Below are positions 3,182 to 15,824 of a DNA stretch of 64,000 nucleotides, in pieces. A model generated the notes under the pieces. It ran no database searches. It had not been told where the DNA came from and worked only from the letters and a program-made list of their open reading frames with translations. Source of the stretch: Synechococcus sp. CBW1004 (GTDB taxonomy: Bacteria > Cyanobacteriota > Cyanobacteriia > PCC-6307 > Cyanobiaceae); assembly GCF_015840715.1 (NCBI RefSeq), contig NZ_CP060397.1, positions 434,001 through 498,000 of the forward strand. The letters are read 5' to 3'. Each line of letters begins with the position of its first letter. Position 1 is the stretch's first letter. The position numbers and the translations under genes are program-made.

Positions 3182-4198
3182 TCAGGCGCGGGTGGCGGCG
3201 AGCGCCAGCTCCTGAGCGCGGGTCAAGGTCGCCGCACCCTGGCCCCAGTACAGGGACTCGAGGCGTTGGCGGGCGGCTTCGGTGGGGTCCTTGGCGCGGC
3301 CCGCCTCATGCGACAGGAACTCCGTCAAGGCCTGGTACGCGCCCCAGTAGCTCCCACGCACTCCGGGGATGTGGGCGCCGATGCCACGGCCGTGGAACTT
3401 GTTGGCCAGGCTCTCCCACGCCGGTAGATCCTCCAGCTGCCGGGGCCGAGCGGTGCTGGCGTCACCGCGGCGATCGTTGATGGTGCGGCTCAGCTGCTCG
3501 GCGAACACCCGCTCGACGTAGGCCCGGAACTGGGCGGCGGTGCAAGGTGTGGAGGCCATGGCCCGCAGCTCGGCGAGGCCGCCGGTGAACTGCTGGCGCT
3601 GCACGTCGATCAGCGCCGGTAGCTGCTCAATCAGCGCATTGGCATTGCGTGTGTGCCGGATCCGGCAAAGCTTGCCGCTTTGGCTTGGTCGTGCCGCCTG
3701 GCCCAGCGCTGCCGAAAGGGTGTTCTGGCAGACGACCCGGATCGGTGAAAACAGGACCTGAAAGGCGAGGCTGCCGTCATGGCTTGTGCAGCCGACGAGG
3801 TATTGCTGCACCGGATCGCCACGCAGGACATCGCCCTCGGCCTGCCGGATTCGTGCCGTGAAGGTCACCTTGCGGCCTTCCGCCAGGACGCAGACGGCAT
3901 CCATCGTGGCGTCTTCATGGAGGGCTTCTGCGAGGCGGATCAGCTGCTCGTTCTGGACCAGGGTGTAGGTGCTGTTCATCACCGCCAGGACCGTGCCGGT
4001 GTCGGTGCGGGTGATCGCCTGATACCCATCGATCGGCCGCATGTCGGCGTCGTAGACGGCGCGGCCGGCGACGGTGAAATCAGCCTGGGCGATGCGGAAG
4101 GCCTCCCGGGCCGGCAGGGTGCCATCGAGGACGGTGCCGAGCTGGTGCCAGGCGCTCTGGCCATGCAGGAAGACGCCGGAAGTGAACTGGTGGGACAT
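3182..4198 (-). CDS. DUF932 domain protein (plasmid/phage-type, TIGR03299-like)
   Basis: A 338-residue protein with the DUF932 architecture: N-terminal FLHGQSAWHQLGTVL, then DGYQAITRTDTGTVLAVMNSTYTLVQN, CTSHDGSLAFQVLFSPIRVVCQNT in the centre, and HIPGVRGSYWGAYQALTEFLSHE near the C-terminus. The family is found mostly on plasmids, phages and integrated elements; its biochemical role is unresolved. It is the downstream neighbour of ArdC, separated by a terminator-like hairpin and an 11-mer lying 29 bases before its ATG, so it probably has its own transcription start. Confidence 0.85.
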   Translation of the reverse strand: MSHQFTSGVFLHGQSAWHQLGTVLDGTLPAREAFRIAQADFTVAGRAVYDADMRPIDGYQAITRTDTGTVLAVMNSTYTLVQNEQLIRLAEALHEDATMDAVCVLAEGRKVTFTARIRQAEGDVLRGDPVQQYLVGCTSHDGSLAFQVLFSPIRVVCQNTLSAALGQAARPSQSGKLCRIRHTRNANALIEQLPALIDVQRQQFTGGLAELRAMASTPCTAAQFRAYVERVFAEQLSRTINDRRGDASTARPRQLEDLPAWESLANKFHGRGIGAHIPGVRGSYWGAYQALTEFLSHEAGRAKDPTEAARQRLESLYWGQGAATLTRAQELALAATRA

Positions 4199-4226
4199 GG
4201 GGGTGTGCCGGCTCGGTGAGCCGGGT

Positions 4227-4262
4227 TGAGCGGATACGAAAAAGCCCCACCAAGGGCGGGGC
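4227..4262 (-). terminator. Terminator hairpin plus 11-mer repeat, unit 2
   Basis: On the minus strand, downstream of ardC, a GCCCC/GGGGC stem (4244-4262) is followed by TTTTT and then the 11-mer GTATCCGCTCA (4227-4237). The DUF932 start lies 29 bases farther on. The unit therefore ends one transcript and heads the next. It shares roughly 30 bp of similarity with unit 4. Confidence 0.65.
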
Positions 4263-4331
4263 GGGCCGCACTCGGGGGAGAGCGGCGAAAGCTGGGGCAG
4301 GGTTCACACCTGCCCTCCCGTTTGCGACGGA

Positions 4332-5354
4332 TCAGCTGGCGTCAGGCGCTGTAGCGGCCTCGTCCTCGGCTGGTTCTGGCGCGATCAGATCGGCCGCCTT
4401 GCGGGCAGCGCTCAGCACCTGGAACAGCACCGATGGCGACTCCTTCAGGAGCTCGGCCCAGTGGCTGAGGTAGGCGGCGTGGTTCTGGAAGTCCGACCCG
4501 ATCTGGAGGCGCTGGCAGACGATCACCGCGCCCAGTTCGGCCACCAGCTCCTCACGGGCATAGGCCGCCGTGCCCATGGCGCCGCGTTGGTTGCGGTCCA
4601 GCCGCGAGGGGTGACCGGTCGAATGAATCTGCTCGTGCGCCCAGGTCGCCGCGAACGCCTCCCGGTTGGAGAAGGCTTCCGCGACAGGCATGGAGATCCG
4701 ATCGGCGCCAGGGCTGTAACAGGCCACGGCACCGCCAAAGACAGTGGGCACGGGCCAGGCCTCGAGCATCGTCTCGGCGTGCTCGAGGCGGACAGCTGCA
4801 GAAGGTGGCGGAGCGGACTGCTGGAGGGCAGCGGCGATCGCCACCGCGAGAGCCTCCTGGGCCTCGGGCGTGGTGCCGACCAGATCGGCGGCGTTGAACA
4901 CCGGCACCACCTTGTATGACACCCAGCTGGTCGTAAGCGGAACGCCCTCGGGGGAGAGCTGGACGTTGCCCTGCTCATCGCGCTGATCGCGCTGGTTCAG
5001 CTGCGGCCGGACGATGCGCACGGCACTGCATCCCTTGCGCGGGAACCAGCCGTTGGCCTTGGCCTGGGCGCCACCGAGCCATAGCGGCAGCGTGTGGCCC
5101 TTCAGGAGGGCGCCGAACTCCAGCAGCAGTGGGTTGGAGCCGCGGTAGGCGTGGCCCGTGAGCAGGTTGCGGTGGGAGCCCTGGTGGCCCTGCCACTCCC
5201 GCCGCCATGGGGCGGTGCCCTGCTCCATCAGGGCGATCAGATCGGCGACGAGCTTCTCCTCGGGTGAGGGTCCGCGCTCGGTGGCGGAGGCCTTCCGGGA
5301 TCGGCGTCCATTGGCTGGGCGATGGGTCCGGTTCGCGGTGGTGGCGGTGCTCAT
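4332..5354 (-). CDS. ardC: ArdC-like antirestriction / ssDNA-binding zincin protein
   Basis: A 340-residue protein with the two ArdC parts: an N-terminal ssDNA-binding domain (about residues 30-140, including MEQGTAPWRREW and GHAYRGSNPLLL) and a C-terminal metallopeptidase-like domain with HEQIH (HExxH) in WAHEQIHSTGHPSRLDR, followed by AREELVAELGA. Plasmid ArdC proteins protect incoming single-stranded DNA from host restriction. Its ATG overlaps the TGA of the upstream SSB paralogue (ATGA), which implies translational coupling and a joint role in handling ssDNA on entry or replication of the element. Confidence 0.85.
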   Translation of the reverse strand: MSTATTANRTHRPANGRRSRKASATERGPSPEEKLVADLIALMEQGTAPWRREWQGHQGSHRNLLTGHAYRGSNPLLLEFGALLKGHTLPLWLGGAQAKANGWFPRKGCSAVRIVRPQLNQRDQRDEQGNVQLSPEGVPLTTSWVSYKVVPVFNAADLVGTTPEAQEALAVAIAAALQQSAPPPSAAVRLEHAETMLEAWPVPTVFGGAVACYSPGADRISMPVAEAFSNREAFAATWAHEQIHSTGHPSRLDRNQRGAMGTAAYAREELVAELGAVIVCQRLQIGSDFQNHAAYLSHWAELLKESPSVLFQVLSAARKAADLIAPEPAEDEAATAPDAS

Positions 5355-5656
5355 GCCACCTCCGCTGCATCGCTGCAGGGTGCGCAGAGAACCTCAAGGC
5401 GATCCACGAGGATCCAGGGCTTGCCGTCTTGCATGCGGAGATCGCCGACCACGCCGATCAGGGCGCCGAGCTGGACCTCGTCGTGGGCACGCTGGGCCGG
5501 CTTCCCCCAGAGCTCAAGGAAGAACGGCTCGGAGGGCCCGCCAAAGCGGCGGCGGTTGATCGTCACCGCGAACGTGACGCGGACCGAGCCGGATTCGTAG
5601 AACACGGCCGCAAGAGGGGTCGCAGCGCGACCCACCAGGGTGATGGAAGCTGTCAT
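5351..5656 (-). CDS. ssb: Single-stranded DNA-binding protein paralogue
   Basis: A 101-residue OB-fold protein matching cyanobacterial SSB along its length: SITLVGRAATP at the N-terminus, YESGSVRVTFAVTINRRR, PFFLELWGKPAQ and LGALIGVVGDLRM. Compared with chromosomal SSB it lacks the long flexible linker and the acidic DDDIPF-type tip, ending in CSDAAEVA, so it may bind DNA without recruiting the usual host partners. It overlaps ardC by the ATGA arrangement. The frame continues upstream to 5854, but the ATG at 5656 fits the domain boundary and lies 24 bases after the unit-3 11-mer. Confidence 0.75.
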   Translation of the reverse strand: MTASITLVGRAATPLAAVFYESGSVRVTFAVTINRRRFGGPSEPFFLELWGKPAQRAHDEVQLGALIGVVGDLRMQDGKPWILVDRLEVLCAPCSDAAEVA

Positions 5657-5679
5657 GGGTGATCCGGCCAGAGACCGGG

Positions 5680-5722
5680 TGAGCGGATACAGAAAGGCGT
5701 GCCCGGCGGCGATCAGCCGGGC
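5680..5722 (-). terminator. Terminator-like hairpin plus 11-mer repeat, unit 3
   Basis: On the minus strand a perfect 7-bp stem, GCCCGGC (5716-5722) and GCCGGGC (5701-5707), is followed by a weak T-tract and GTATCCGCTCA (5680-5690). The ssb paralogue starts 24 bases downstream. This unit separates the Cys-rich small-protein operon from the ssb-ardC operon. Confidence 0.6.
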
Positions 5723-5741
5723 GAGGTGTCGACGCAGGGCG

Positions 5742-6023
5742 TCACTCGAGGACCAGGAGGGAATCGCCCTCGCAGCAGTTGCAGGCCCAGATCCAGAGCA
5801 GGCGGCGGCGGTTGGCCTGGTGATCACAGAGATCGGCTGTCGACCAGGCGCCATAACCGCGCAGGTGGTGGCGGATCATCCAGGGAGGGCCGTCGAAGTC
5901 CAGGCGACGAACCCAGTACTCGACGGCGTCATCGACCGGGCCGGAGGCGGAGCAGTCGGCTACGCAGTCAGCCGGCAACAAGCCGTGGCTGAACGATCCG
6001 TGGAACCAGCGGTTGCGGAACAT
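5742..6023 (-). CDS. Small Cys/Trp-rich hypothetical protein
   Basis: A 93-codon frame giving a protein rich in Cys and Trp (cysteines in CVADC and WACNCCEG), perhaps metal-binding. No family is recognised. It is the last gene of a three-gene minus-strand run (6554 to 5742) whose members are three bases apart, which suggests one operon. A terminator-like hairpin follows directly. Confidence 0.5.
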   Translation of the reverse strand: MFRNRWFHGSFSHGLLPADCVADCSASGPVDDAVEYWVRRLDFDGPPWMIRHHLRGYGAWSTADLCDHQANRRRLLWIWACNCCEGDSLLVLE

Positions 6024-6026
6024 CGC

Positions 6027-6284
6027 TCAGCCCTCCTGATGAATCAGGAAGGTGAACGTGGCCACCTCACAGGCCAGGCACCACCGATCGGCGTCGTGGT
6101 ACTTGCAGAAGTGCGTGTTATCGGCCAAGTCAACGCAGGAGACGTTCTGACCAGGGAAGGTCTCCTCCCACCAGCCGTCTGCCGCCGCGATGTCGGCGTC
6201 ATCAAGGCTGCTGGGGTCGGCGTTGATGAAATAGCAGGCCCAGTGGGTGGGGAGCTCGTAGGTGTCGACACGCAGAGAAGCCAT
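6027..6284 (-). CDS. Small hypothetical protein, possibly DUF6926-like
   Basis: An 85-residue acidic protein: YELPTHWACYFINADPSSLDD at the N-terminus and a C-terminal CKYHDADRWCLACEV segment with paired cysteines and histidine. It resembles small plasmid- and phage-encoded proteins of the DUF6926 kind, an assignment made from memory of the pattern and not certain. It sits three bases from both neighbours in the same operon. Confidence 0.55.
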   Translation of the reverse strand: MASLRVDTYELPTHWACYFINADPSSLDDADIAAADGWWEETFPGQNVSCVDLADNTHFCKYHDADRWCLACEVATFTFLIHQEG

Positions 6285-6287
6285 CGA

Positions 6288-6554
6288 TCAGGCCTCCGCG
6301 TAGGCGGACTCGATGCGATCACTGCAGTGATCGCAGAAGAGCTCGGGGTCTTCCCAGTTGACGGCAAGAGCGATGACGTTCCAGCCGTCGCTGCCGGTCG
6401 TGGTGGCGATGCAGAGGCGCTCGGAGGCGCAGCAATGGCGGCAGAGGCAGGCGCCATCGGAGGTGATGGCATGCAGGGGATAGCCGCTAGGCCATGCGAA
6501 AGGGGCCCGGCTGAGCGTGTCAGCCAGGCGCAGTGATCTGGATTGTGTGGTCAT
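6288..6554 (-). CDS. Small Cys-rich plasmid-type hypothetical protein
   Basis: An 88-residue protein with two Cys clusters: CLCRHCC in the middle, and LFCDHCSDRIESAYAE at the C-terminus, which looks like a small zinc ribbon. The segments FAWPSGYPLHAITSDGA and NWEDPELFCDHC recall small proteins carried on conjugative plasmids. The frame continues upstream to 6719 through a terminator-like hairpin; the ATG at 6554 is chosen because it lies 25 bases after the unit-4 11-mer, the spacing seen at the other units. First gene of a three-gene operon. Confidence 0.6.
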   Translation of the reverse strand: MTTQSRSLRLADTLSRAPFAWPSGYPLHAITSDGACLCRHCCASERLCIATTTGSDGWNVIALAVNWEDPELFCDHCSDRIESAYAEA

Positions 6555-6578
6555 GAGTTGACCGATTGGGGTAGAGAA

Positions 6579-6615
6579 TGAGCGGATACGAAAAGGCCCC
6601 ACCACGAGGGGTGAG
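6579..6615 (-). terminator. Terminator-like hairpin plus 11-mer repeat, unit 4
   Basis: On the minus strand a CCCC/GGGG hairpin is followed by CCTTTTCG and then the 11-mer GTATCCGCTCA (6579-6589). The first gene of the small-protein operon starts 25 bases later. The unit is similar to unit 2 over about 30 bases. Confidence 0.6.
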
Positions 6616-6619
6616 GCGA

Positions 6620-6645
6620 GCCAATCCAGGCGGACTTGAACCGCC
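6620..6645 (-). other. tRNA T-arm-like fragment (possible old attachment site)
   Basis: On the minus strand GGCGG-TTCAAGT-CCGCC forms a textbook T-arm (5-bp stem, 7-nt loop). No matching acceptor 5' strand or anticodon arm is found upstream, so this is not a complete tRNA. Such 3' fragments are often left by integration into tRNA genes. It does not match the tRNA-Ser at 14.4 kb. Confidence 0.3.
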
Positions 6646-6648
6646 AAA

Positions 6649-6688
6649 CAGCAAAAGCCCGACCTGTAGGTGCACGGGTCGGGCGATG
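6649..6688 (-). terminator. Rho-independent terminator-like hairpin
   Basis: On the minus strand GCCCGACC and GGTCGGGC form a perfect 8-bp stem around a 12-nt loop, followed by TTTTGC. It is a good intrinsic terminator for minus-strand transcription from the 6.7-7.9 kb region, although no gene is recognised upstream of it. Confidence 0.5.
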
Positions 6689-6689
6689 C

Positions 6690-7899
6690 TGCGCCTTGCC
6701 TGTTCATGCCAACGGCCACGCCGTCAACATGCAGGTGGATTGGGTTGGGGACGGTATTCGTCGGGTGTTCTTGCCCTTCTTTTCAGTCACGTCCAGAGAC
6801 TGGAAGCCAGAGTTGCACTGGCTGCGACGAGTTGGCACACGGGGTGCACAGCGCGTCAGGGCCGCAAGGCCCCGCAGGAGGAAGACTTGGCGTCTATTGA
6901 TACTGTCCTGCGCTTCTATTCAGCCGGATTCAAGTTCCGGAACGCTGGGGCAGCTCAGCCACGGGACGCCTGTAGATTCCGAGCCCACAAGGGGGCCGCA
7001 CCGGCGTGATCCGTCCTCGGGGAGCCGTGCCAATCGCGGCCACCCCTCGTCTGCCCGCTCACCCCCTGATCCACTTGGCCGAGTGAGAGCGCCACGGGGA
7101 CCGCATGTCCCTGACCCAGACGCAGAGCGCCTGGCCCTCTCACTTGCACCTACCGGTTGACGTCAACAGTCCTCATAACAGGACCGAATCCGTGTGGCCG
7201 CCGGGGAAGCGTTTCTATAATTTGGCGCGGCAAAGCAGCCGCTCAGCGGAAGTGCATAGGCTCGGCGCCTGTTCGGCGCAGTCAATAGAAGAGAAGAGAT
7301 GCAATCGACCCGGCCGCAATGGCTGGGGGCCTGGCCGCTGAGGGTGAGCGACTGCGGCGCAGTCCTGCCTGAGCGGTTGAGAGAAAGGTAAGGGGTAAGG
7401 GTCGCGAACGTCAAGCAACTCGCCGGAAGCAAGTCATAGCCAGAGAGGCGACAGATGCGCCAGTCAACGCAACATCCAGGGCGCATATCATTTCCACCCG
7501 CAATAGGAAAATGTATGTAGATCAGGCGCTCTGATTTGGTTTGCGAGCCTGACGGGAGGGAGGGGTGGTGATCTTTATGCAAATACACTGCCCATTCATT
7601 GATTCATTTGCCGAGCAGCGCTTTTCCTGTTGCGAGTCAGCCGCGGCAATGACTTAGAAGCCTGCTGTCGATAATGCTAGTAGAGGCGCGACTAGAAGGC
7701 GTCTTCGCGTAACAGGCAAAAAGCAGTAGCAAGAACTCTCTGTTTAGTGCTATGACACGATATCTTGACACTTCATTATCGCCAGGAGCCCGCATGGCGA
7801 TCTCCGTAAGTTGTAGATGACCGGACACATCAAGCAAGAAGGCCCGCTCAAGTCGGCGAGCAGGCCCGCGGGTCCGGTGGTACATCCGTCCTATCTTAC
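6690..7899. other. 1.2-kb region without a supported gene
   Basis: Several short frames exist here but none has convincing protein character or a good start. Visible elements are a 12-bp palindrome GTTGACGTCAAC (7156-7167), a consensus -10 hexamer TATAAT (7216-7221) without an obvious -35, a TTGACA (7765-7770), and an inverted repeat GGCCCGCTC/GAGCAGGCC (7841-7865) just upstream of the replication gene. From about 7380 the base composition is more AT-rich. This could be the regulatory or left-end region of the element, or hold an RNA gene. Confidence 0.4.
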
Positions 7900-10647
7900 A
7901 TGGCCAACTCCTCTCCCGACAATGCTTCCCCCCAAATTGAGGGAAGGGCAATTGACTTATTGCGTTCTGGCGTATTTCCTGAGTGGTGGACGTTCATTCC
8001 GGTAGCAGGAAAAGCGACGTTCGTTAAAGAGTGGTCAACGAAGCCTTTGACCAAGGAGCAGTGCATCCTCGAATACAAGACGAAACAGGCCTATCGCGGG
8101 CTCGGGGTGGTCACCGGGGAGTTCTCGGGGGGCCTGATCGCGCTGGACATCGATGGGCTGAGCGCCGATGACCGGTACGAGGCTTCGGTGGGCGAGGCCT
8201 ACGAGGCACCTGGGGAGGAGAGCACGATGTCGTGGACCTCAGGGCGGCCGGGGCGGCGGCAGATCCTTTATCGGGTGCCGGCCTCGGTGGTGCCGGAGCT
8301 GCGACACGTCAAGACGCTGATCCTGCGCGCCGACGGGGAGTGGCACCTGGGGAACGGGGACACGGACCGCAACGCACAGCAGGAGGCCCAGAAGGACGGC
8401 GACGCCGAGTACGAGGAGGTGGTCCTCCGCTTCAACCAGTGCCAGAGCGTGGTGCCGGGGTCGCCGCACCCGAGCACGGGCATGCGGTATCGGTTCCTCA
8501 ACTACAACGAGGGCAAGGTGGCCCTGGCGCCGGAGTGGCTCCTGGACATCCTCCGGGGCTTCCGAAAGCCGGTGCAGTGGCTGAGCGATGCCGATCAGAA
8601 GGCTCTGGATGCCGAGCTCGGGGAGACGGCGATTCCGTCGCGGCAGATCCGGGGCTGGTTCTTCAAGGAGGAGGTGCAGGCCCTGCTGAGGCCCCGGCTC
8701 GAGGAGCTGGTGTTCCGGCACGAGACGTTCGACGCCTATGGGTGGCGGGAACGGGATGGAGCCAAGCCGCAGCGGATGTCCGGGTGCCCCTGGCATGGGG
8801 GCAAGAGCGGGACGTCATTCCAGTACTCGCCGGACTCGGGGTGCTGGGACTGCAAGGCGTGCGGCGTGGGCGGGGACGTCCTGGACTTCATCCACAAGGT
8901 GCGGGTCAACAACCTGCATGCGGAGAGGCCCCAAGGCCCGGACCTGGAGGTCTATGTGGCGGAGATCGCGACGGCCCTCGGGTTCAACTACCCGGAGGAC
9001 GCCCGGGCGTCGACGGTCAAGAACCAGGAGGTGCCGCTGCGCCGGTTGACGGGGCATGAGTTCTTCTCCGCGGCGCTGAAGATCGAGGACTCGTTCGAGA
9101 ACGCCGAGCTCGGGGACTACCACCTGATGGAGCTGGTGCGGGACGCCGGCCTGATGAACGTGTATCGGTCGGGGCCCCAGGTGAGGGCGGCGCTGGAGCG
9201 GTTCATGCTGCATGAGCAGCAGGAGCTGGACGAGGCCGACTGGCAGGAGAAGTGCCGGGGGCAGCGGGACTACCTGATCCCGGACTTCGTGTCGCGGCCC
9301 AGCTCGATCATGTTGCACGCCCGGGGCGGCCTCGGGAAGACGCGGCTGGCGGTGCTGATCTCGAAGATCGTGGGCCAGCAGCAGACCATGAGGGTGCGGG
9401 GGCTGGAGGTGCAGCCGACGCTCTCGGGGAATGTGCTGTTCATCGGCAACGACATGTCGATGACGGATTACGCCGAGTACTTCGATCAGCAGGGGATCGA
9501 TACGTCGGGGCCAGATCGGTGGATGAAGTTCAAGCCGCAGTGGCAGCAGAGCCAGTACAAAGTGCTGCTGCGGTGGCTGAACGAGCACAAGCCGGTGTTG
9601 GTGGTGATTGACTCGCTGACGTCAGTCAGCACGATGATCGCGGCCAAGGAGTACGAGAAGGAGTACGCGACGACGCTGTATCGGCTGGCGCGGGAGAACG
9701 GGACGGCGTTCCCGGCGACGACGTTCCTGTGGATCCACCACGACAAGAAGGATGGGACGGGGTTCCGGGGGACGGACACGCTGCGGAATGCGGTGCATGA
9801 GACCTGGCACCTGAAGGAGCTCTCGGATGAGGAGCGGGCGGAGTTCGGGGACCACGCGCTGATCCTGGAGATCGACAAGAGCCGGGGCATGCGGGGTGGG
9901 GACCGGTTCCTGGTGCGGGAGGACATCGAGGAGGCCCTGAGCCTGGAAGACCTCACGCCGACCGTGAAGCGGGACAACCGGGGCCAGGGCGACGAGACTC
10001 CGCGGACGCTCGTCCTCGGGATCCTCAAGGAGGCGTCGGGGCCGCTGACGGTGAAGGAGCTGCGGTACGAGCTCAACAGCCGGCTGTCGGGGCGCCGGGG
10101 CCAGGGGGCGCACGTGTCCGCCAGGACGGTGCAGCGGTGGCTGAAGGCCTGGGTAGGGGCCGGCCTCGTGGTGTCTCCAGGGTCTCAGACCTCGGTGGGG
10201 AAGGGGAGGCCTGAACCCCTCTTCGAGGTGGCCTCTTCTATATACGAGGCAAATTCTGTCGTTAAGTCTGTGGAAAACCTTGAGATCCCAGTCCCCGAGG
10301 GCGATCTAATTAACGACACGGGTTTGTCGTTAAATGCCCCTGAGGAGGGGTGTGTCGTTAAGTCAGCCCAGATCTCGCCCGAGACCGGTGGGACGAGGAC
10401 CGTGTCGCTGCCCACCGAGAACGGGGTGACTCAAGTGGCCTCGCCAACGCCCTCGGGGGAGGGGCCGGCAATTAACGACACAAGCGACACCACCGAGGGC
10501 GTGTCGTTAAATACGATGCCCGAAAACCGGTCCAGGACAGGGGTTTCGAGCGACCAGGCCCGAATTAGCGACATTCCGGCACAGGTAAAGGAGAAACCCG
10601 TCCTCCGCTACGAGCTCGACAACTGGGGCGAGGTCGATTGGGGGTGA
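7900..10647 (+). CDS. Primase-polymerase / zinc-ribbon / RecA-like helicase fusion replication protein
   Basis: A 915-residue multidomain replication protein. Residues about 15-215 form a bifunctional primase-polymerase domain (ALDIDG at 81-86, TSGRPGRRQILYRVP, then VVPGSPHPSTGMRY). Residues about 297-330 form a CHC2/DnaG-like zinc ribbon (CPWH then CWDCKACGVGGD). Residues about 465-680 form a RepA/AAA_25-type ATPase with Walker A GGLGKTR, Walker B VLVVIDS and FLWIHHDKKDGTGFRGTDTLR. A winged-helix-like segment (about 700-770) and a low-complexity tail follow. Together these would prime, unwind and start replication of a mobile element. The tail DNA carries the iterons. The gene converges with the small recombinase. 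The ATG at 7900 has no clear Shine-Dalgarno. Confidence 0.85.
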   Translation: MANSSPDNASPQIEGRAIDLLRSGVFPEWWTFIPVAGKATFVKEWSTKPLTKEQCILEYKTKQAYRGLGVVTGEFSGGLIALDIDGLSADDRYEASVGEAYEAPGEESTMSWTSGRPGRRQILYRVPASVVPELRHVKTLILRADGEWHLGNGDTDRNAQQEAQKDGDAEYEEVVLRFNQCQSVVPGSPHPSTGMRYRFLNYNEGKVALAPEWLLDILRGFRKPVQWLSDADQKALDAELGETAIPSRQIRGWFFKEEVQALLRPRLEELVFRHETFDAYGWRERDGAKPQRMSGCPWHGGKSGTSFQYSPDSGCWDCKACGVGGDVLDFIHKVRVNNLHAERPQGPDLEVYVAEIATALGFNYPEDARASTVKNQEVPLRRLTGHEFFSAALKIEDSFENAELGDYHLMELVRDAGLMNVYRSGPQVRAALERFMLHEQQELDEADWQEKCRGQRDYLIPDFVSRPSSIMLHARGGLGKTRLAVLISKIVGQQQTMRVRGLEVQPTLSGNVLFIGNDMSMTDYAEYFDQQGIDTSGPDRWMKFKPQWQQSQYKVLLRWLNEHKPVLVVIDSLTSVSTMIAAKEYEKEYATTLYRLARENGTAFPATTFLWIHHDKKDGTGFRGTDTLRNAVHETWHLKELSDEERAEFGDHALILEIDKSRGMRGGDRFLVREDIEEALSLEDLTPTVKRDNRGQGDETPRTLVLGILKEASGPLTVKELRYELNSRLSGRRGQGAHVSARTVQRWLKAWVGAGLVVSPGSQTSVGKGRPEPLFEVASSIYEANSVVKSVENLEIPVPEGDLINDTGLSLNAPEEGCVVKSAQISPETGGTRTVSLPTENGVTQVASPTPSGEGPAINDTSDTTEGVSLNTMPENRSRTGVSSDQARISDIPAQVKEKPVLRYELDNWGEVDWG
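10257..10573. repeat. Iteron cluster, probable replication origin inside the rep gene
   Basis: Six perfect copies of the 9-mer TGTCGTTAA lie in 254 bp: plus orientation at 10257, 10325, 10353 and 10502, minus orientation at 10310 and 10472. Degenerate copies lie at 10403 (+), 10484 (-) and 10565 (-). The copies at 10310 and 10325 form a 9-bp inverted repeat with a 6-bp spacer. The copies fall in three codon phases (VVKS twice, L/VSLN twice, INDT twice), so what is conserved is the DNA, not the protein. This is how Rep-binding iterons of an origin look. Confidence 0.7.
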
Positions 10648-10667
10648 CCAATTGCACCGCTAGAGCT

Positions 10668-10702
10668 CATTCCTAAATTTATTATCAACCATTAATCAAT
10701 GC
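10668..10702. other. AT-rich stretch beside the iterons, candidate unwinding element
   Basis: About 35 bases composed mainly of A and T lie just after the stop of the rep gene and run into the 3' end of the small recombinase gene, in otherwise GC-rich DNA. Next to an iteron cluster, this is the expected place for a DNA unwinding element. Function is inferred from position and composition only. Confidence 0.4.
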
Positions 10703-11275
10703 AAGAGCAGCCGCTTCGTCTGATTCGGAAACGTCGATATATTGCTGTAGTTGACCGAGGGAGGCATGCCCTGTAAACCGCTGCACGGTTCGCAGGGATG
10801 CCCCCCTTTGGGCCATTGTTGTTGCCAATGAGCGCCGGAAGGAGTGCAGCGAAACTCCTGAGGCTATGTGTGATCCAAGAACCTTCAGAGTCTTCCTAAG
10901 TGCCAGATCGGCAGCTTGGCGCGTCATCGGCTGTGTCTCCGAGTTCGGGCTAAGGAACAGCAGGGCGCCGTTGCGGGCTTCGCGGCCATGTCGCTGCTCC
11001 CAGTGCTGTCGGTACCGATCGAGCTCGGCTCTCAGGCGCTCGCCCATCAAGGGCTCGCGGGTGCGCTTGGTCTTGGTGGTCGTCGCCTCGAACACGATCC
11101 GATCGCTGTGGATGGCGCCCCAATGCAGGCGAAGGGTTTCGGTGACGCGCGAACCGCTGAAGCGCATCACCGCCCATAGCGCTCGGTGCTCGAGCGATGG
11201 AGCGGCCTCCATCAGCTGATCGAGCTCATCAGGGGTCAGCACCCGTGCCTGGCCGTTGCCGTTTGTCTTGGGCAT
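10685..11275 (-). CDS. Short tyrosine recombinase (catalytic domain only)
   Basis: A 196-residue protein that is essentially the catalytic domain of a phage-type integrase: Arg I in FSGSRVTE (R43), box II HSFRRSLAT (H144, R147), GH at 169-170 and the Tyr nucleophile in QQYIDV (Y179). It lacks the N-terminal arm- and core-binding domains of full-length integrases, so it may be a compact recombinase, a resolvase for element dimers, or a truncated gene that kept its active site. The ATG at 11275 is used; the frame upstream to 11374 is poor. An inverted repeat lies just before the start. Confidence 0.8.
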   Translation of the reverse strand: MPKTNGNGQARVLTPDELDQLMEAAPSLEHRALWAVMRFSGSRVTETLRLHWGAIHSDRIVFEATTTKTKRTREPLMGERLRAELDRYRQHWEQRHGREARNGALLFLSPNSETQPMTRQAADLALRKTLKVLGSHIASGVSLHSFRRSLATTMAQRGASLRTVQRFTGHASLGQLQQYIDVSESDEAAALALING

Positions 11276-11289
11276 GGGCGACCTCGGAG

Positions 11290-11315
11290 CTTGTCGAATA
11301 CTAGAGAAGGACAAG
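11290..11315. promoter_or_regulatory. Inverted repeat upstream of the short recombinase
   Basis: CTTGTC (11290-11295) and GACAAG (11310-11315) form an inverted repeat with a 14-bp spacer, ending about 15 bases before the recombinase ATG. A third CTTGTC lies at 11403-11408. The position suggests an operator; no regulator is assigned. Confidence 0.3.
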
Positions 11316-11435
11316 CGGCGAGGCTGGGCGATCGTTCTCAACGGGCCTGAGCACTCGGGGCGGAGTCCGGGCACTTGTTGATTCTCAATAAGGGCGTCGT
11401 TCCTTGTCCTACTGAGAGCGCCGCTTCATGTGTGC

Positions 11436-12113
11436 TCAATCCCGCAGGGCGAGAACCTCGATCGTCCCGTCATGAGCTTGGGCCCGCATCCGGTCGCGCT
11501 CCGCCACGGTCCATGCGCGCCGCGGGAAGGGGTCAGGCGGGGCCTGGGTGGTCGGCGCTGGTCCAGGTGGGTGCAAGGGCACCTCGCGAGGTGCCAGCTC
11601 CTCCTGGGCGAGGACGAGGAGGTCAGCAAGCGCCGGCTCGGTCTCGGGGTTCGGATTCCGAAGCCAGGCGCAGCGTCTGTCGTTGTCGGCGCTGAGCAGG
11701 GCGAGGGCGAGCTGGAGGTGCCATGGGTCGCGCCAGATCTCACGGGGGTCGCGGAAGGTCAGCTCGGTGGGGCTGACCAGGCGACGGTGCATGTCACCAG
11801 TGAGCCAGCGAGGGGCGAAATGGGGGCCTGTGGCCCGGATCCAGGCGGTGTGTTCGTGCCCCTGGGTGATCAAGCCCACAGGCTGTCCTGCTGGCCACTG
11901 CCTGGTCGGGGTCAGGGCGTCATAGAGCACGGGTTCAGGCACTGGGCCCGCGAGCCACCTGGCATGCGCAACGGTGTCGCACGGCCGCCACCAGGCGAGC
12001 GGCTGGTCGATGTCCACCTCGCGGGCGTTGGCCGCTCTGCGCCGCTGCTCCAGAGCCTTGCGCAGGGCGCGGGTGTGGGCTCCTCCGTCAATCTGCCGCA
12101 ACTGGCGGCGCAT
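11436..12113 (-). CDS. Hypothetical protein downstream of the TerS-like gene
   Basis: A 225-residue protein with no recognised family. It has a basic, helical N-terminus (MRRQLRQIDGG then RALRKALEQRRRAANAREV), a Trp-rich central part (WWRPCDTVAHARWL; WHLQLALALLSADND) and a Pro-rich C-terminus. The ATG at 12113 gives a 26-bp overlap with the TerS-like gene upstream, so the two are probably co-transcribed and translationally coupled. In small phage satellites genes in this position often modify packaging or regulation, but nothing in the sequence proves that. Confidence 0.5.
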   Translation of the reverse strand: MRRQLRQIDGGAHTRALRKALEQRRRAANAREVDIDQPLAWWRPCDTVAHARWLAGPVPEPVLYDALTPTRQWPAGQPVGLITQGHEHTAWIRATGPHFAPRWLTGDMHRRLVSPTELTFRDPREIWRDPWHLQLALALLSADNDRRCAWLRNPNPETEPALADLLVLAQEELAPREVPLHPPGPAPTTQAPPDPFPRRAWTVAERDRMRAQAHDGTIEVLALRD

Positions 12114-12621
12114 CTCCGAGCTCACCAGTGTTGACAGCGACGCCGTCGAGGATCGAGAGAGGCTCATCAGAGACAAGGCAGGTGGCAACTTCAGCGAAGA
12201 CTTCAGGTGAAAGCTGATCGCGGAGTTTTGTCGCGATCTCGGTGATCACCGATCGACGTAGTACGAGTTCAGTCCGGCCCAGTGGTTGGACATCAAGTGC
12301 ATATAACTTTCTGATTTCAGAGGAGGCCTTTAATGCTGATGGCACCTGCGAGAGATCGCCACTGGCAATGGCTTGATCAAGTTTTGAGGCAATGTTGTCA
12401 AGTCGCTCATATTCCTCGGCCCTAAGTGCAGCGGCGCCCTCGATGCAGGCAGCATCGAGTTTTGTCAGATATAAATTGATATCCCTTCTCACTGTTTCGC
12501 GAGAGCAGCCTGTCTTCTTTGCAATCTCCCGCATCGTTAAGCGTGAATCACGGCGCAAAGCGATCACCTTCGCCTGCCTTTCGGCCTTTGCGATCAGATG
12601 CGGGCCTCCTCGTCTTGGCAC
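12088..12621 (-). CDS. HTH protein resembling phage terminase small subunit
   Basis: A 177-residue protein. Residues about 12-50 form a helix-turn-helix (LTMREIAKKTGCSRETVRRDI); then comes a helical region with the pattern EEYERLDNI...ASGDLSQVPSALKASSEIRKLYALD, seen in small terminase-like proteins whose C-terminal helices drive oligomerisation. In phages TerS picks the DNA for packaging; in satellites a dedicated TerS redirects packaging. An ordinary HTH regulator is the main alternative. GTG start at 12621; an ATG seven bases upstream is out of frame. Confidence 0.55.
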   Translation of the reverse strand: MPRRGGPHLIAKAERQAKVIALRRDSRLTMREIAKKTGCSRETVRRDINLYLTKLDAACIEGAAALRAEEYERLDNIASKLDQAIASGDLSQVPSALKASSEIRKLYALDVQPLGRTELVLRRSVITEIATKLRDQLSPEVFAEVATCLVSDEPLSILDGVAVNTGELGDAPPVAAD

Positions 12622-12769
12622 GGCTCATATGTCACACCAATCCCATTCTGCCAGCAGGAACTCGGTCGTCTGGCTGCCATGTCCTAGGGCAAACCTGTTC
12701 TTGTCTTGGTTAAATGATTGCACCATGTGAGCTTGCATCGCAACTGCATCTCGCCCTATGGCCCCAGAT

Positions 12770-13051
12770 TCAACCGCGGTTCAGTCCGAGTTCAGTCAGG
12801 GTGTGCTCGCGGTGATATCGATACGTGAACGACTTCCCGCGTTTATTTCGCTTGAAACTTCGCTGTGAGAGTCTGCCTTGGCTGATATAGTTCTGAAGCG
12901 TTCTTGGTGTTACTCCCACGATCCGGCTCATTTCTGCTGGAGTCAGCCATGCCACTGCTGCTACTGGGACGTGTCTCTCCAGGGCATGAAGCCGAGTGTT
13001 GATCTGTTTGAGTTCTCTGAGAATGGCATCCCCGAGATCGGCATCAGACAT
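12770..13051 (-). CDS. Excisionase-like HTH protein
   Basis: A 93-residue protein with a short N-terminal coiled coil (ILRELKQINTRLHALERHV) and a winged helix-turn-helix: WLTPAEMSRIVGVTPRTLQNYISQ followed by the basic wing FKRNKRGKSFTYRY. Size, fold and position 80 bases downstream of the integrase fit a recombination directionality factor (Xis) of the MerR/Xis type. It could instead be a repressor. Confidence 0.65.
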   Translation of the reverse strand: MSDADLGDAILRELKQINTRLHALERHVPVAAVAWLTPAEMSRIVGVTPRTLQNYISQGRLSQRSFKRNKRGKSFTYRYHREHTLTELGLNRG

Positions 13052-13132
13052 GGCCCGGCTGCGTTCGCGTCTTCACGAAACGTACGGACTTTTCGCTCGG
13101 ACCGTAAGCGACGGATGTTTGCTCGAAGCTTG

Positions 13133-14275
13133 TCACACGCTCTCGGTGGCCATGGCGCGGCGGAGGTCGCTGGCCTGGATGTGGCGGTGGTAGGTCTGCT
13201 CGTGGACCGCGGCGCTGTGACCGAGGGCGCGGGCGCAGAGGGTGAGGGGCTTGCAGGCCTCGATGCTGCGGATGGCCCAACGGTGGCGGAGGTCGTAGAG
13301 GTCAAAGTCGGGGAGGAGCTCCGCGAAGATCGGAGCGATGTCCTTGGCGCGGCGGCTGTGGCGCCAGGCGTCGACGAAGCGCTTGGCCCGGGCGGAGTCG
13401 TAGTCCTCGGGATGAGTCCAACGAGTCTCGGCCGGGATGGAGATGTCCCCGAGGGCGTAGCGGTCGATCCAGGCTCGGGGGAGGGCGAAGCAGGTGCGTA
13501 GGGCTGGGGCTCGGTTGCGGCGCTTGATCGTGAGCACCTCGGCGGTGCCGTCGTCGTGGATGACCAGGGAGGGGATCTCCGCGGGACGGCAGCCGAAGGT
13601 GGCCAGGGCGGCGTAGCACCAGCCCCATTTCGTGGGGCGGAGGGCGTCGAGGAGGGCGGTGATGGTGTCGTCCTCGGGGATGGTGCGTTCGGCCGGCGCG
13701 TAGCTGCCTTGGAGCTCGCTGATGCGCTCGAGGTTGCCGGGCAGACCCAGGTGGCGCGCCAGGCGCTTCAGCACCTTGCAGCATTCCACCCGAGTGCGGG
13801 TGCCGGGCTCGGTGGACGTGATCGTGCGGAGGAGCGTTTCGAGCGTGCAGGGCAGAGCTGGGGGGAGGCGGCGCAGCTCGAGGTGGATGCGTTCCCAGGT
13901 GCGTTCGGAGGCGGAGTTGCGGGGGCGGCTCTGCCAGTAGGCGACTTCGAAGGAGTGGATCGCGGCGCCGCAGGACATGGGGGCGTCGCTCTCGGGGGAG
14001 TCCCCCGAGGACGGGCGTGCCGCGGGTGTCGCCCAGGGCAACGCTGCCGGGAAGGTGCCGGCCTCGATGGCGCCGTGGAGCTGCAGACAGCGGAGCTCAG
14101 CGGTGACGAGGTTCGCCGGGACGGCCTTGAGGTCGAGGGAGATGTACCTGCGCCGCCGTGAGCCATCTGCGTCGGGGAAGGTGCCGCGGATGAAGAGGGA
14201 CTGACGACGCTGCTCGACCAGCATGCGGAGGCCCCGCTCTCGGAGGGCGGCGTTGGTGGGGGCCAGATCGAGCAC
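13133..14275 (-). CDS. int: Tyrosine integrase of the tRNA-Ser-linked element
   Basis: A 380-residue phage-type integrase. The N-terminal third resembles an arm-DNA-binding domain (SLFIRGTFPDADGSRRRRYISLDL), the middle is the helical core-binding domain, and the C-terminal third holds the catalytic residues: Arg I in FGCRPAEIP, box II LYDLRHRW (about 326-333), GH at 352-353 and Tyr 362 in EQTYHRH. It starts with GTG at 14275, 134 bases from the 3' end of the tRNA-Ser gene and pointing away from it, the standard layout for an element integrated at a tRNA 3' end. Confidence 0.88.
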   Translation of the reverse strand: MLDLAPTNAALRERGLRMLVEQRRQSLFIRGTFPDADGSRRRRYISLDLKAVPANLVTAELRCLQLHGAIEAGTFPAALPWATPAARPSSGDSPESDAPMSCGAAIHSFEVAYWQSRPRNSASERTWERIHLELRRLPPALPCTLETLLRTITSTEPGTRTRVECCKVLKRLARHLGLPGNLERISELQGSYAPAERTIPEDDTITALLDALRPTKWGWCYAALATFGCRPAEIPSLVIHDDGTAEVLTIKRRNRAPALRTCFALPRAWIDRYALGDISIPAETRWTHPEDYDSARAKRFVDAWRHSRRAKDIAPIFAELLPDFDLYDLRHRWAIRSIEACKPLTLCARALGHSAAVHEQTYHRHIQASDLRRAMATESV

Positions 14276-14317
14276 GGCACACGTGAGCCGGTTGTGAGCC
14301 GTTTTACCACGCGCAAC

Positions 14318-14334
14318 GACGCGACATGACGCGA
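14318..14334. repeat. Direct repeat GACGCGA between integrase and tRNA
   Basis: GACGCGA occurs at 14318-14324 and 14328-14334, one helical turn apart (10 bp centre to centre). GTGAGCCG is also repeated nearby (14283 and 14294). Spacing and position suggest integrase arm-type or Xis binding sites of the attachment region. Confidence 0.35.
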
Positions 14335-14408
14335 AGGATCGGGAAAGTTAGCTTGCGAGCCTCAGTCCAGATCCCTGATGCTGTCTGAGATCTCAGGCTT
14401 TCACTGAA

Positions 14409-14493
14409 CGGAGAGGGTGGGATTCGAACCCACGGACCCTTGCGGGTCGCCGGTTTTCAAGACCGGAGCCATCAACCACTCGACCACCTCTCC
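14409..14493 (-). tRNA. tRNA-Ser (UGA)
   Basis: On the minus strand the acceptor 5' strand GGAGAGG (14493-14487) pairs with CCTCTCC (14416-14410), with G73 at 14409. The anticodon loop CTTGAAA carries TGA at 14457-14459, a long variable arm (GACCCGCAAGGGTC) follows, and the T-arm is GTGGGTTCGAATCCCAC. CCA is not encoded. The gene is intact and is the probable integration target of the element to its left. Confidence 0.97.
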
Positions 14494-14588
14494 AGACGCT
14501 GGTTGGTGCTGGCACCGAATCAGCTCAGCCATGATCCCATGCCCGCCCCCGGCGCAGCGAGGACTCCGGTTGGTCGAGGAGCCAGTGA

Positions 14589-15824
14589 TCAGGGGTGTGG
14601 TTCAGCGCTCGGTGGGGGCTGCACCAGCTGATTGGCGATGCCGCGGCATCCTCCCGGCAGCGTCGCCCGGCTGCGGGTTCCGCTCCAGCTGGCCAGGTAG
14701 TAGTGCTGTTGAGGATCGAGTCGACGGATGCCTCGGAAGGAGGCATCGACCACGATGGCTCCGCTTCCGCCGCCGGTGACCAGATCCCTGGGCCGCTCGG
14801 GATGGATGGGTGTGGCCGTCTGGGCTCGGCCGAAAAACAGCAGGGTCCCGTCCAGGCAGCAGCGGTCGAGGATCGCCCCCGTGAGATCGGCTCCCGCCAG
14901 ATTGGCGTCGCTGAGGTCTGTCCCGCTGAAATCCACGCCACGGAGATCGGTTCCGTGCAGATCGACACCCCGCAGATCGCAGCGACTGAGATCCGTGCCT
15001 CGCAGCATGGAATGCAGTCGCACCACGGCGACACCGCTCTGCCAATCGAGTTCATAGCCGCCAAGCCCGTCGAGAATCGCGCGGCCAAGCCGGGCATCGC
15101 GTCGCAGAGGGCTCAGCAGGAGCGCATGCGAGAGAAAGCGCAGCACCCTGGCCTTGCCCTGGGCGTCGATGCTGCTGAGAACCGCGGCCAGCCGCCCCTC
15201 CGCCAGCATCCGCTCCAGGGGCCAATCCTCCAGCAGCCCTTCCTCATCGACGATCAGTTCACTGATGCCCTGGATCAGGTTGTCAATCGTCTGGGCCTGG
15301 GTGATCACGTTCTGCTGGCCGGTGAGACGTTGGTCCACCCGCACCTGCTGCCAGGCGATCAGCAGGGCCACCATCGCCACCAGGATCTGTCCGAATGCTC
15401 CGATGACCCCCTCGCCAATGGCCCCGATCGCTTCCCAGTTCCGTTCCTGCCAGAGGGACAGGTAGGGCTCCAGCCAACCCAGCTCCGCGGTGACGACGAC
15501 CCCGGCAAGCAGCAGGCCGGCGGTCGCCACGATCCGCAGCACGGTTGGGTCGTCCAGGCGGCGCTGCAGGTTGTTCAGCAGCGGTGGAAGGAGCACCAGC
15601 AGGGAGAGCGCCAGCAGAGCCAGTCCCGACCCCAGCAGCAGTGGGGTCCACTGCAGCAACTGCGCGGCCAGGGCCAGTCCGATCAGGCCGAGCAACTGCA
15701 CGCTGGTGGCGCGTGGTGAGCGTGCCCAGAGCGGCAGTGACCGCAACGGGCCAGGGGGCATCGCCAGCGGGACGATCGCTGCAACACCCTTGTCACCATC
15801 ACCGCTTCGGCTGTTGGGGGTCAT
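14589..15824 (-). CDS. Membrane-anchored pentapeptide-repeat protein
   Basis: A 411-residue protein. The first ~160 residues contain about four hydrophobic membrane segments, then a cytoplasmic helical linker, and residues about 280-345 form a short run of pentapeptide repeats (LRGTDL, RCDLRGVDLHGTDL, SDANLAGADLTGA), which fold as a right-handed beta-helix. Function is unknown. The ATG at 15824 lies a few bases after the stop of the antiporter gene, so the two are probably co-transcribed; a longer frame from 15869 would overlap it. A similar but frameshifted pentapeptide protein is found at 56.9 kb. Confidence 0.75.
   Translation of the reverse strand: MTPNSRSGDGDKGVAAIVPLAMPPGPLRSLPLWARSPRATSVQLLGLIGLALAAQLLQWTPLLLGSGLALLALSLLVLLPPLLNNLQRRLDDPTVLRIVATAGLLLAGVVVTAELGWLEPYLSLWQERNWEAIGAIGEGVIGAFGQILVAMVALLIAWQQVRVDQRLTGQQNVITQAQTIDNLIQGISELIVDEEGLLEDWPLERMLAEGRLAAVLSSIDAQGKARVLRFLSHALLLSPLRRDARLGRAILDGLGGYELDWQSGVAVVRLHSMLRGTDLSRCDLRGVDLHGTDLRGVDFSGTDLSDANLAGADLTGAILDRCCLDGTLLFFGRAQTATPIHPERPRDLVTGGGSGAIVVDASFRGIRRLDPQQHYYLASWSGTRSRATLPGGCRGIANQLVQPPPSAEPHP

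Follow-up and report, generated by a model that had tools for sequence, protein, structure and literature searches.

In Synechococcus sp. CBW1004, the 3' end of a gene for a replication protein (hereafter, rep; positions 7900–10647, plus strand, 915 amino acids [aa]) carries an array of seven 9-bp sites, and we propose, with a probability of roughly 0.8, that this array is the iteron replication origin of a mobile element, bound by a winged helix that is encoded just upstream in the same gene. The analyzed DNA (hereafter, the window) is a stretch of 64,000 nucleotides from contig NZ_CP060397.1 (positions 434,001–498,000); all coordinates are positions in this window unless a homologous locus is named, and loci used for comparison are designated Lnnn.

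Site array at the 3' end of rep

The word TGTCGTTAA occurs six times without mismatch within 254 bp (10257–10510), four times on the plus strand (slots 1, 3, 4, and 6 at 10257–10265, 10325–10333, 10353–10361, and 10502–10510) and twice on the minus strand (slots 2 and 5 at 10310–10318 and 10472–10480). A seventh site (slot 7; 10565–10573, minus strand) has the word TGTCGCTAA, which contains one mismatch and recurs at the same place in L065. All seven sites are inside the coding sequence, 2.4–2.7 kb from the start codon, and slots 2 and 3 form an inverted pair with a 6-bp spacer. A preliminary description of this DNA had reported the six perfect copies in both orientations, the inverted pair at 10310/10325, and three different translations of the 9-mer, and had concluded that selection acts on the DNA. 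These observations were reproduced (the six exact sites represent three strand/phase classes), and synonymous-codon permutation of the window rep gene agreed with the conclusion: no 9-mer exceeded three copies within the final 600 coding nucleotides, compared to the six observed (0 of 200 permutations). Shuffled versions of the window contain a mean of 0.02 copies of TGTCGTTAA, and none of 100 shuffles reaches six. The genome-wide count suggested in the preliminary description gave 10 copies in 3,672,318 bp, six of them in this array and four scattered, far from the array and from one another; TGTCGTTAA read backwards, used as a control pattern, has eight copies genome-wide. The array strand folds better than shuffles (z −3.84), probably due to the inverted sites.

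Rep homologues were found in IMG/VR contigs (65 loci by the first search and 80 by profile, many of these being repeats) and at 11 loci of picocyanobacterial genomes, including named records of Vulcanococcus, Synechococcus, and Cyanobium. Among 400 genomes of the family, 60 match Rep at E 0.001, mostly over one domain only, and, not counting the genome of the window itself, about eleven have matches that extend into the winged-helix part. The phage collection contributed a single match at 1e-5, S-LBS1, which is remote (34% identity over 21% of the protein). After exclusion of L021–L038 (remote domain matches with nothing at 1e-20), 77 loci remained in the first set, eight of them without a stop codon in the stretch, and removal of exact duplicate tails resulted in 56 distinct tails. 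A second set of 26 loci (20 of the 80 IMG/VR profile loci and 6 of the 11 genome loci, the rest being judged repeats of the first set by contig name, coordinates, or identity) was reduced by four duplicates and two loci without a stop codon to 20, giving a total of 76 distinct tails.

At least four copies of one 9-mer are present in the last 600 coding bases of 54 of the 76 homologue tails, compared to one of 199 other gene tails (open reading frames of at least 250 aa from the same loci). This lone control tail (L115:5064–6251), which has six copies of its own word GTGTCAGTA, resembles the 3' portion of a rep gene that has been interrupted. Synonymous permutation placed 43 tails of the first set of 56 at or below 1%; of the 20 in the second set, 12 contain four or more coding copies, each at 0 of 200 permutations. 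Word copies number 370 in the rep tail regions and 5 elsewhere in 763 kb, a ratio that is favourable by construction because the words were picked from the tails; the loci cover only part of each contig. The words differ between lineages and include TGTCGTTAA, TGACCAAAA, TGAGCAAAA, TGTCCAAAA, and TGTCCGTAA, as well as TGTCCGAAC, TGTCCGTTC, TGTCCATTG, and TGTCAATCG, with 21 distinct words in 43 filtered sequences; each lineage tends to have its own word, apparently matched to the adjoining winged helix. The top-word matches are all coding in 64 of the 76 loci, both coding and noncoding in 10, and noncoding in two, in a count for which some top words are noise, the scan reached 200 bp past the stop codon, and the words of L110 and L079 were set by hand. 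The array is entirely past the stop codon in L010 and L076 and straddles it in L106 and L110.

The arrangement of the sites is conserved beyond the words themselves. The window layout (53/15/28/119/30/63, +-++-+-) is common to the window and L039 within two bases, with differing words, and L065, which has the same word as the window, shows this layout minus slot 5. Between the window and L065, 60 of 63 slot bases are identical compared to 152 of 274 outside the slots, as expected in the preliminary description if the sites are kept while the protein tail drifts. Homologues that conserve the peptide and lose the 9-mers, its opposite expectation, were not seen among close relatives: the slot peptide changes along with the word (VSLN in the sixth slot of the window, VTKT in L039, LSKT in L041, LSVN in L043), and the slot places largely stay. 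In 15 tails with the word TGTCCAAAA, slot identity exceeds that of the rest by 0.136, a difference reached by 0 of 313 mask shifts.

Two layouts recur among the homologues. Class I (+-+-+-, 42/31/39/30/43) is dyad-symmetric and was found with at least five of six sites at 11 of the 76 loci, with five words and in coding, straddling (L110), or noncoding (L010) positions. Class II, i.e., the window layout, was found with at least six of seven sites at 4 of the 76 loci at tolerance 1 and at 19 at tolerance 2, with three words. Sixty jittered geometries per layout matched no locus at tolerance 1 and no more than one or two loci at tolerance 2. This count, which allows at most one mismatch per site and includes the hand-set word of L110, replaces a looser first one (20 of 76 loci, no null, seven hand-set words). 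Given that the arrays of L010 and L076 lie past the stop codon and that L010 and L110 keep the symmetric class I spacing within a base, the array does not have to be in coding DNA, and the protein by itself does not account for the spacing of the sites.

Predicted winged helix of Rep and its change with the word

In a Pfam scan (E up to 0.01), Rep matched only PrimPol (PF09250, aa 30–213, E 8.2e-15), a CHC2-type Zn ribbon (aa 293–335), and the RecA-like AAA_25 domain (aa 445–619), with no match to RepA_N (PF06970) or to a superfamily 3 (SF3) helicase. An AlphaFold2 model, based on an alignment of 36 C-terminal parts, predicts a winged helix-turn-helix at aa 701–777 (10000–10230, plus strand) with three helices and two strands (ten-residue mean predicted local distance difference test [pLDDT] 75–94, mostly near 90). 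Within this domain, the proposed iteron reader, the recognition helix comprises aa 741–754 (10120–10161) and the wing aa 757–777 (10168–10230). The domain groups with PerR/Fur-type winged helices, the best VIA-align match being PerR 2rgv_B (Z 10.4, root-mean-square deviation 1.8 over 69 residues) and the best Foldseek E-value 0.0088; sequence alignment against PDB chains at E 0.01 gave no match. The 50 structure-comparison matches listed include no P4 alpha or RepA_N entry, which excludes neither. For aa 782–915, pLDDT is mostly <50, in agreement with the low-complexity tail noted in the preliminary description, and the sites are thus located in the DNA of a probably disordered linker that, according to the model, runs from the winged helix to an acidic, aromatic C-terminal tip (KPVLRYELDNWGEVDWG; 10594–10644, plus strand). 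In the DNA block that encodes the tip, identity to L039 is again 90%. Many homologues, despite variation in the linker before it, likewise end in an acidic tip that contains tryptophan or phenylalanine, which resembles a peptide for docking a replication partner.

In pairs of homologues that are otherwise nearly identical, a change in the reader accompanies a change in the word. L086 and L099 have a 100% identical core (aa 145–690 aligned), with no differences at 13 helix positions, 10 differences at 21 wing positions, and the words TGTCCGTTC and TGTCCTTTG, respectively; L043 and L044 (core 99.5%) likewise show 0 of 13 helix and 8 of 22 wing differences, with the words TGTCCGTAA and TGTCCAAAA (for L079, this close-pair comparison used a hand-set word). 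The DNA differences in both pairs are mainly in one block spanning the winged helix and the array, and in L086/L099 a stretch of 48–85% identity is flanked by 96–100% on either side. The corresponding candidate specificity cassette of the window (10112–10588, plus strand) is where identity to L039 drops to 45–73%, compared to 91–100% in the eleven preceding 60-column blocks, before it returns to 90% at the C-terminal tip; in full-gene blocks, identity to L039 is at least 91% in 11 of 14 and 81–88% in three. The segment 10203–10492 of the window matches L065 better (76 and 56%) than it matches L039 (54 and 45%), whereas in the rest of the gene the window shows 52–71% identity to L065 and mostly above 90% to L039.

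The nearest neighbour by helix and wing gives the exact word for 22 of 43 sequences, compared to 13 of 43 for aa 300–690 (better in 16 cases, worse in three; p = 0.0015), in a test that used automatic words only (76 tails reduced to 55 and then to 43). When 38-residue windows were moved in 10-residue steps from aa 150, the one at 740 had the best mean word prediction. A repeat with 50 sequences and some hand-set words (L110, L079, L179, L176, L189, and L173) gave a similar nearest-neighbour result; here, non-TG words were excluded and L019, L020, L068, L091, L144, L115, and L177 were dropped by hand, with L068 restored (62 reduced to 50).

Under the origin reading, the C-terminal winged helix would bind the seven 9-bp sites, with the recognition helix reading bases 3–5 and the wing bases 6–9 of the word. 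Several Rep molecules would be kept in register by sites that are fixed in spacing and orientation, after which, with a hexamer presumably loaded, the helicase domain would open the DNA and the PrimPol domain would prime it. Because reader and sites are within about 600 bp, one recombination event could change both, and recombination that swaps them together would change the replication type in a single step. The symmetric layout might reflect two opposed Rep assemblies, although this is a guess. In its widest form, to which we give even odds, the proposal comprises at least 21 9-bp words, each matched to the recognition helix (bases 3–5) and the wing (bases 6–9) in two site geometries, class I being arranged as if for two opposed Rep hexamers, and a cassette of reader and sites, roughly 350–550 bp long, that phage-type elements and picocyanobacterial chromosomal islands exchange as one piece, its slots changing largely together. 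Such changes of type may be driven by incompatibility or by escape from defences that target the origin.

Conflicting observations and rival explanations

Several results weigh against this reading. Fewer than four copies of one 9-mer were found in 22 of the 76 tails, and the coding tails of L068, L091, L144, L173, and L177 contain no convincing exact array, even though L068 and L091 fit the class I layout if up to two mismatches per site are allowed. The tails of L176 and L189 have mixed words (e.g., TGTCCATTG with TGTCCTTTG in L176) and are possibly caught in transition between specificities. L040 retains fewer slots than the window, and among eleven pairs compared, the same-word pair L066/L101 is poorly conserved, with 31 of 61 bases identical in the slots and 106 of 276 outside. 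A scan of ten window proteins revealed no DNA polymerase, whereas the phage-type relatives examined have one encoded beside rep, and the mobility of the window's own element is therefore uncertain. The AT-rich stretch that the preliminary description had included in the origin layout is present 3' of the stop codon (10648–10720; 64% A+T in the first 50 bp), but it does not appear to be a conserved feature: A+T at that position is 34% in the nearest relative, L039, and averages 39% over 55 homologues (48% from +100 onward), such that no conserved AT-rich opening region was found 3' of rep in these 55 homologues. The embedded iteron-type origin proposed in that description is supported by the sequence checks, except for the AT-rich flank as one of its conserved parts.

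The assignment of helix and wing to different parts of the word needs similar caution. In a partial Mantel analysis of 34 sequences (of the first 54 aligned proteins, excluding non-TG words and near-identical proteins with the same word, and with the L079 word set by hand), the helix follows bases 3–5 (r = 0.63) and the wing bases 6–9 (r = 0.54), and neither does so conversely, but control regions correlate as well (aa 145–280 with bases 3–5, r = 0.45; aa 705–738 with bases 6–9, r = 0.55). Relatedness was therefore not fully removed, and we place the weight on the close pairs and the nearest-neighbour prediction. A candidate rule that R after TV specifies TGTCA was dropped, given that L141, L176, and L179 have TVRRW with TGTCC.

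The strongest competitor, which we consider unlikely but worth serious attention, accepts the origin as proposed and attributes the changes in domain and words to fast divergence in place, with no cassette exchange. Diversifying selection could produce the cassette differences, no donor of the swapped stretch was identified, and the mixed words of L176 and L189 look stepwise. However, the edges of the divergent block are fairly sharp in pairs that are near-identical outside it (L086/L099), and the affinity of 10203–10492 to L065 rather than to L039 is the reverse of that in the rest of the gene, both of which would be better accommodated by exchange. A different role for the same contacts, which we regard as improbable, is that Rep binds the sites for copy number or incompatibility control (titration, handcuffing) or for partition, and that the true origin is elsewhere in the element. 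Iterons of known replicons can serve copy control (PMC5703833), such sites would likewise covary with the reader and could need a fixed geometry, and no opening region is evident at the array. Nonetheless, no second array of the same word was seen in the compared loci, as the 370 copies near the tails and 5 elsewhere in 763 kb indicate, and Staphylococcus aureus pathogenicity islands (SaPI), staphylococcal cassette chromosomes (SCC), and plasmid pRN1 have their known or putative origins directly after the gene, as described in PMC7581432 and PMC4234260.

Transcriptional control of rep or its convergent neighbour, with the sites acting as operators for Rep or another regulator, appears very unlikely. 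A repressor would also be compatible with sites that are inverted and spaced and with a winged helix resembling those of Fur/PerR repressors, and L178 has one word copy about 400 bp before the rep match, but of the five copies that the 76 loci have beyond their tail regions, no other is upstream of rep; moreover, the window sites are at the 3' end, kilobases away from the start codon, and the words follow Rep's own domain. We attach almost no credence to the repeats being a by-product of peptide repeats or codon bias in a repetitive tail, an idea suggested by its low complexity and mostly disordered model, because the sites are distributed over both strands and fall into three phase classes, the observed count was not reached in any of 200 synonymous permutations, and the arrays of L010 and L076 are noncoding.

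The window's element and comparison to known systems

The DNA upstream of rep, containing ArdC and single-stranded DNA-binding protein (SSB)-like genes, shares about 80% identity with rep-proximal stretches of L107 (4371–7418) and L105 (5053–7451), and the integrase gene (13133–14275) is 96.6% identical over 854 bp to the phage-type contig L040. With an L105/L107-like upstream part, an L039-like rep, and an L040-like integrase, the element (3182–14275) has the appearance of a mosaic in which island and phage parts are combined. A 229-aa tyrosine recombinase is encoded tail to tail with rep (10685–11374; catalytic-domain model over aa 45–217), and its homologues are found beside rep in L011, L013, L015, and L020. 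The tRNA-Ser region (14250–14600) has no exact repeat of 15 nt or more elsewhere in the window, and the ends of the element are not fixed.

In the phage-type contigs L046 and L040, the neighbours of rep include, between them, genes for a deoxynucleoside monophosphate kinase, an exonuclease, an SSB-like protein, a family-A DNA polymerase, an endolysin, and an integrase; L043, too, has a DNA polymerase gene beside rep. A transposase gene lies between the rep and DNA polymerase genes of the close phage-type relative L040 (9438–10739). In L089 (8890–9687) and L091 (8987–9754), rep is followed by a KilA-N type gene, and the matches of the L091 gene include a family annotated as BstA replication inhibitor. 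In the isolated cyanophage S-LBS1 (L104; MG271909.1), AGGTTRGGCAG repeats (8129–8529), of which at least seven share one orientation and several have the opposite one, start just past the stop codon (8124) of a distant PrimPol/VapE-type gene; they are a possible origin and count in favour of the origin reading for Rep. An exact 127-nt direct repeat ends this record.

Embedded origins are a known kind of design, and what distinguishes the Rep family is its domain make-up, the order of reader and then sites at the 3' end, and the number of words; no title listed in searches of open-licence papers reports an embedded origin in this PrimPol-AAA_25 family. The lambda origin lies inside gene O (PMC4488673), and the origins of Shiga toxin (Stx) phages are treated likewise (PMC7466680). 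As in Rep, the iterons are in the coding DNA of the initiator, one half of which binds them in lambda, and some lambda origin mutants leave the O protein working (cited parts of PMC4488673 and PMC7466680). The amino-terminal half of the O protein, as described there, binds the four 19-bp repeats, and O acts together with P and a recruited helicase, whereas the window has seven 9-bp sites in both orientations, placed after a proposed reader near the C-terminus (aa 701–777 of 915), and combines primase, helicase, and proposed reader in one protein. The RepA_N plasmid pSK41 also has its origin in the DNA of a linker that follows the winged-helix reader, and pPR9, a natural chimera, is distinguished from pSK41 by ~500 bp that comprise reader and origin (PMC5703833). 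The pSK41 Rep, however, has 319 aa and recruits DnaG primase (PMC5703833), and RepA_N is not among the Pfam matches of the window Rep.

Covariation of a DNA-binding domain with its origin, and exchange of this domain as a module, are also described for RepA of the phage-inducible chromosomal island-like elements (PLEs) of Vibrio cholerae, the iterons of which are required by the phage nuclease Odn to cut the PLE origin; there, the protein is RepA_N-type, the origin is intergenic, and PLEs 1 to 5 were compared (cited sections of PMC8263062). SaPI Rep and SCC Cch2 resemble the window Rep, as proposed here, in that the C-terminal domain of an initiator-helicase binds repeats, in these cases directly after the gene (the SCC origin being putative), and differ from it in having the repeats outside the gene and a separate primase (PMC7581432). 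ORF904 of pRN1 shares PrimPol, helicase, and a C-terminal winged helix in one protein, but contains an SF3 helicase and has, in the cited description, a putative stem-loop origin without iterons just 3' of its gene (PMC4234260), compared to AAA_25 and in-gene iterons in the window. P4 alpha is likewise a single primase-helicase-origin-binding protein (PMC4234260, in part). It has a Toprim-type primase and an SF3 helicase, unlike the PF09250 and AAA_25 domains of the window Rep. N15 RepA is another single primase-helicase-origin-binding protein and has the origin within its gene.

If the proposal is correct, replication specificity in this Rep family would be readable largely from some 38 residues, and the embedded-origin design of lambda O and RepA_N plasmids would extend to a primase-helicase initiator of other domain make-up. 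This would suggest that the design recurs, with a possible reason being that reader and sites travel together. It may also provide a handle for locating the origins of uncultured cyanophages and chromosomal islands and for determining what drives the switching of origin types.

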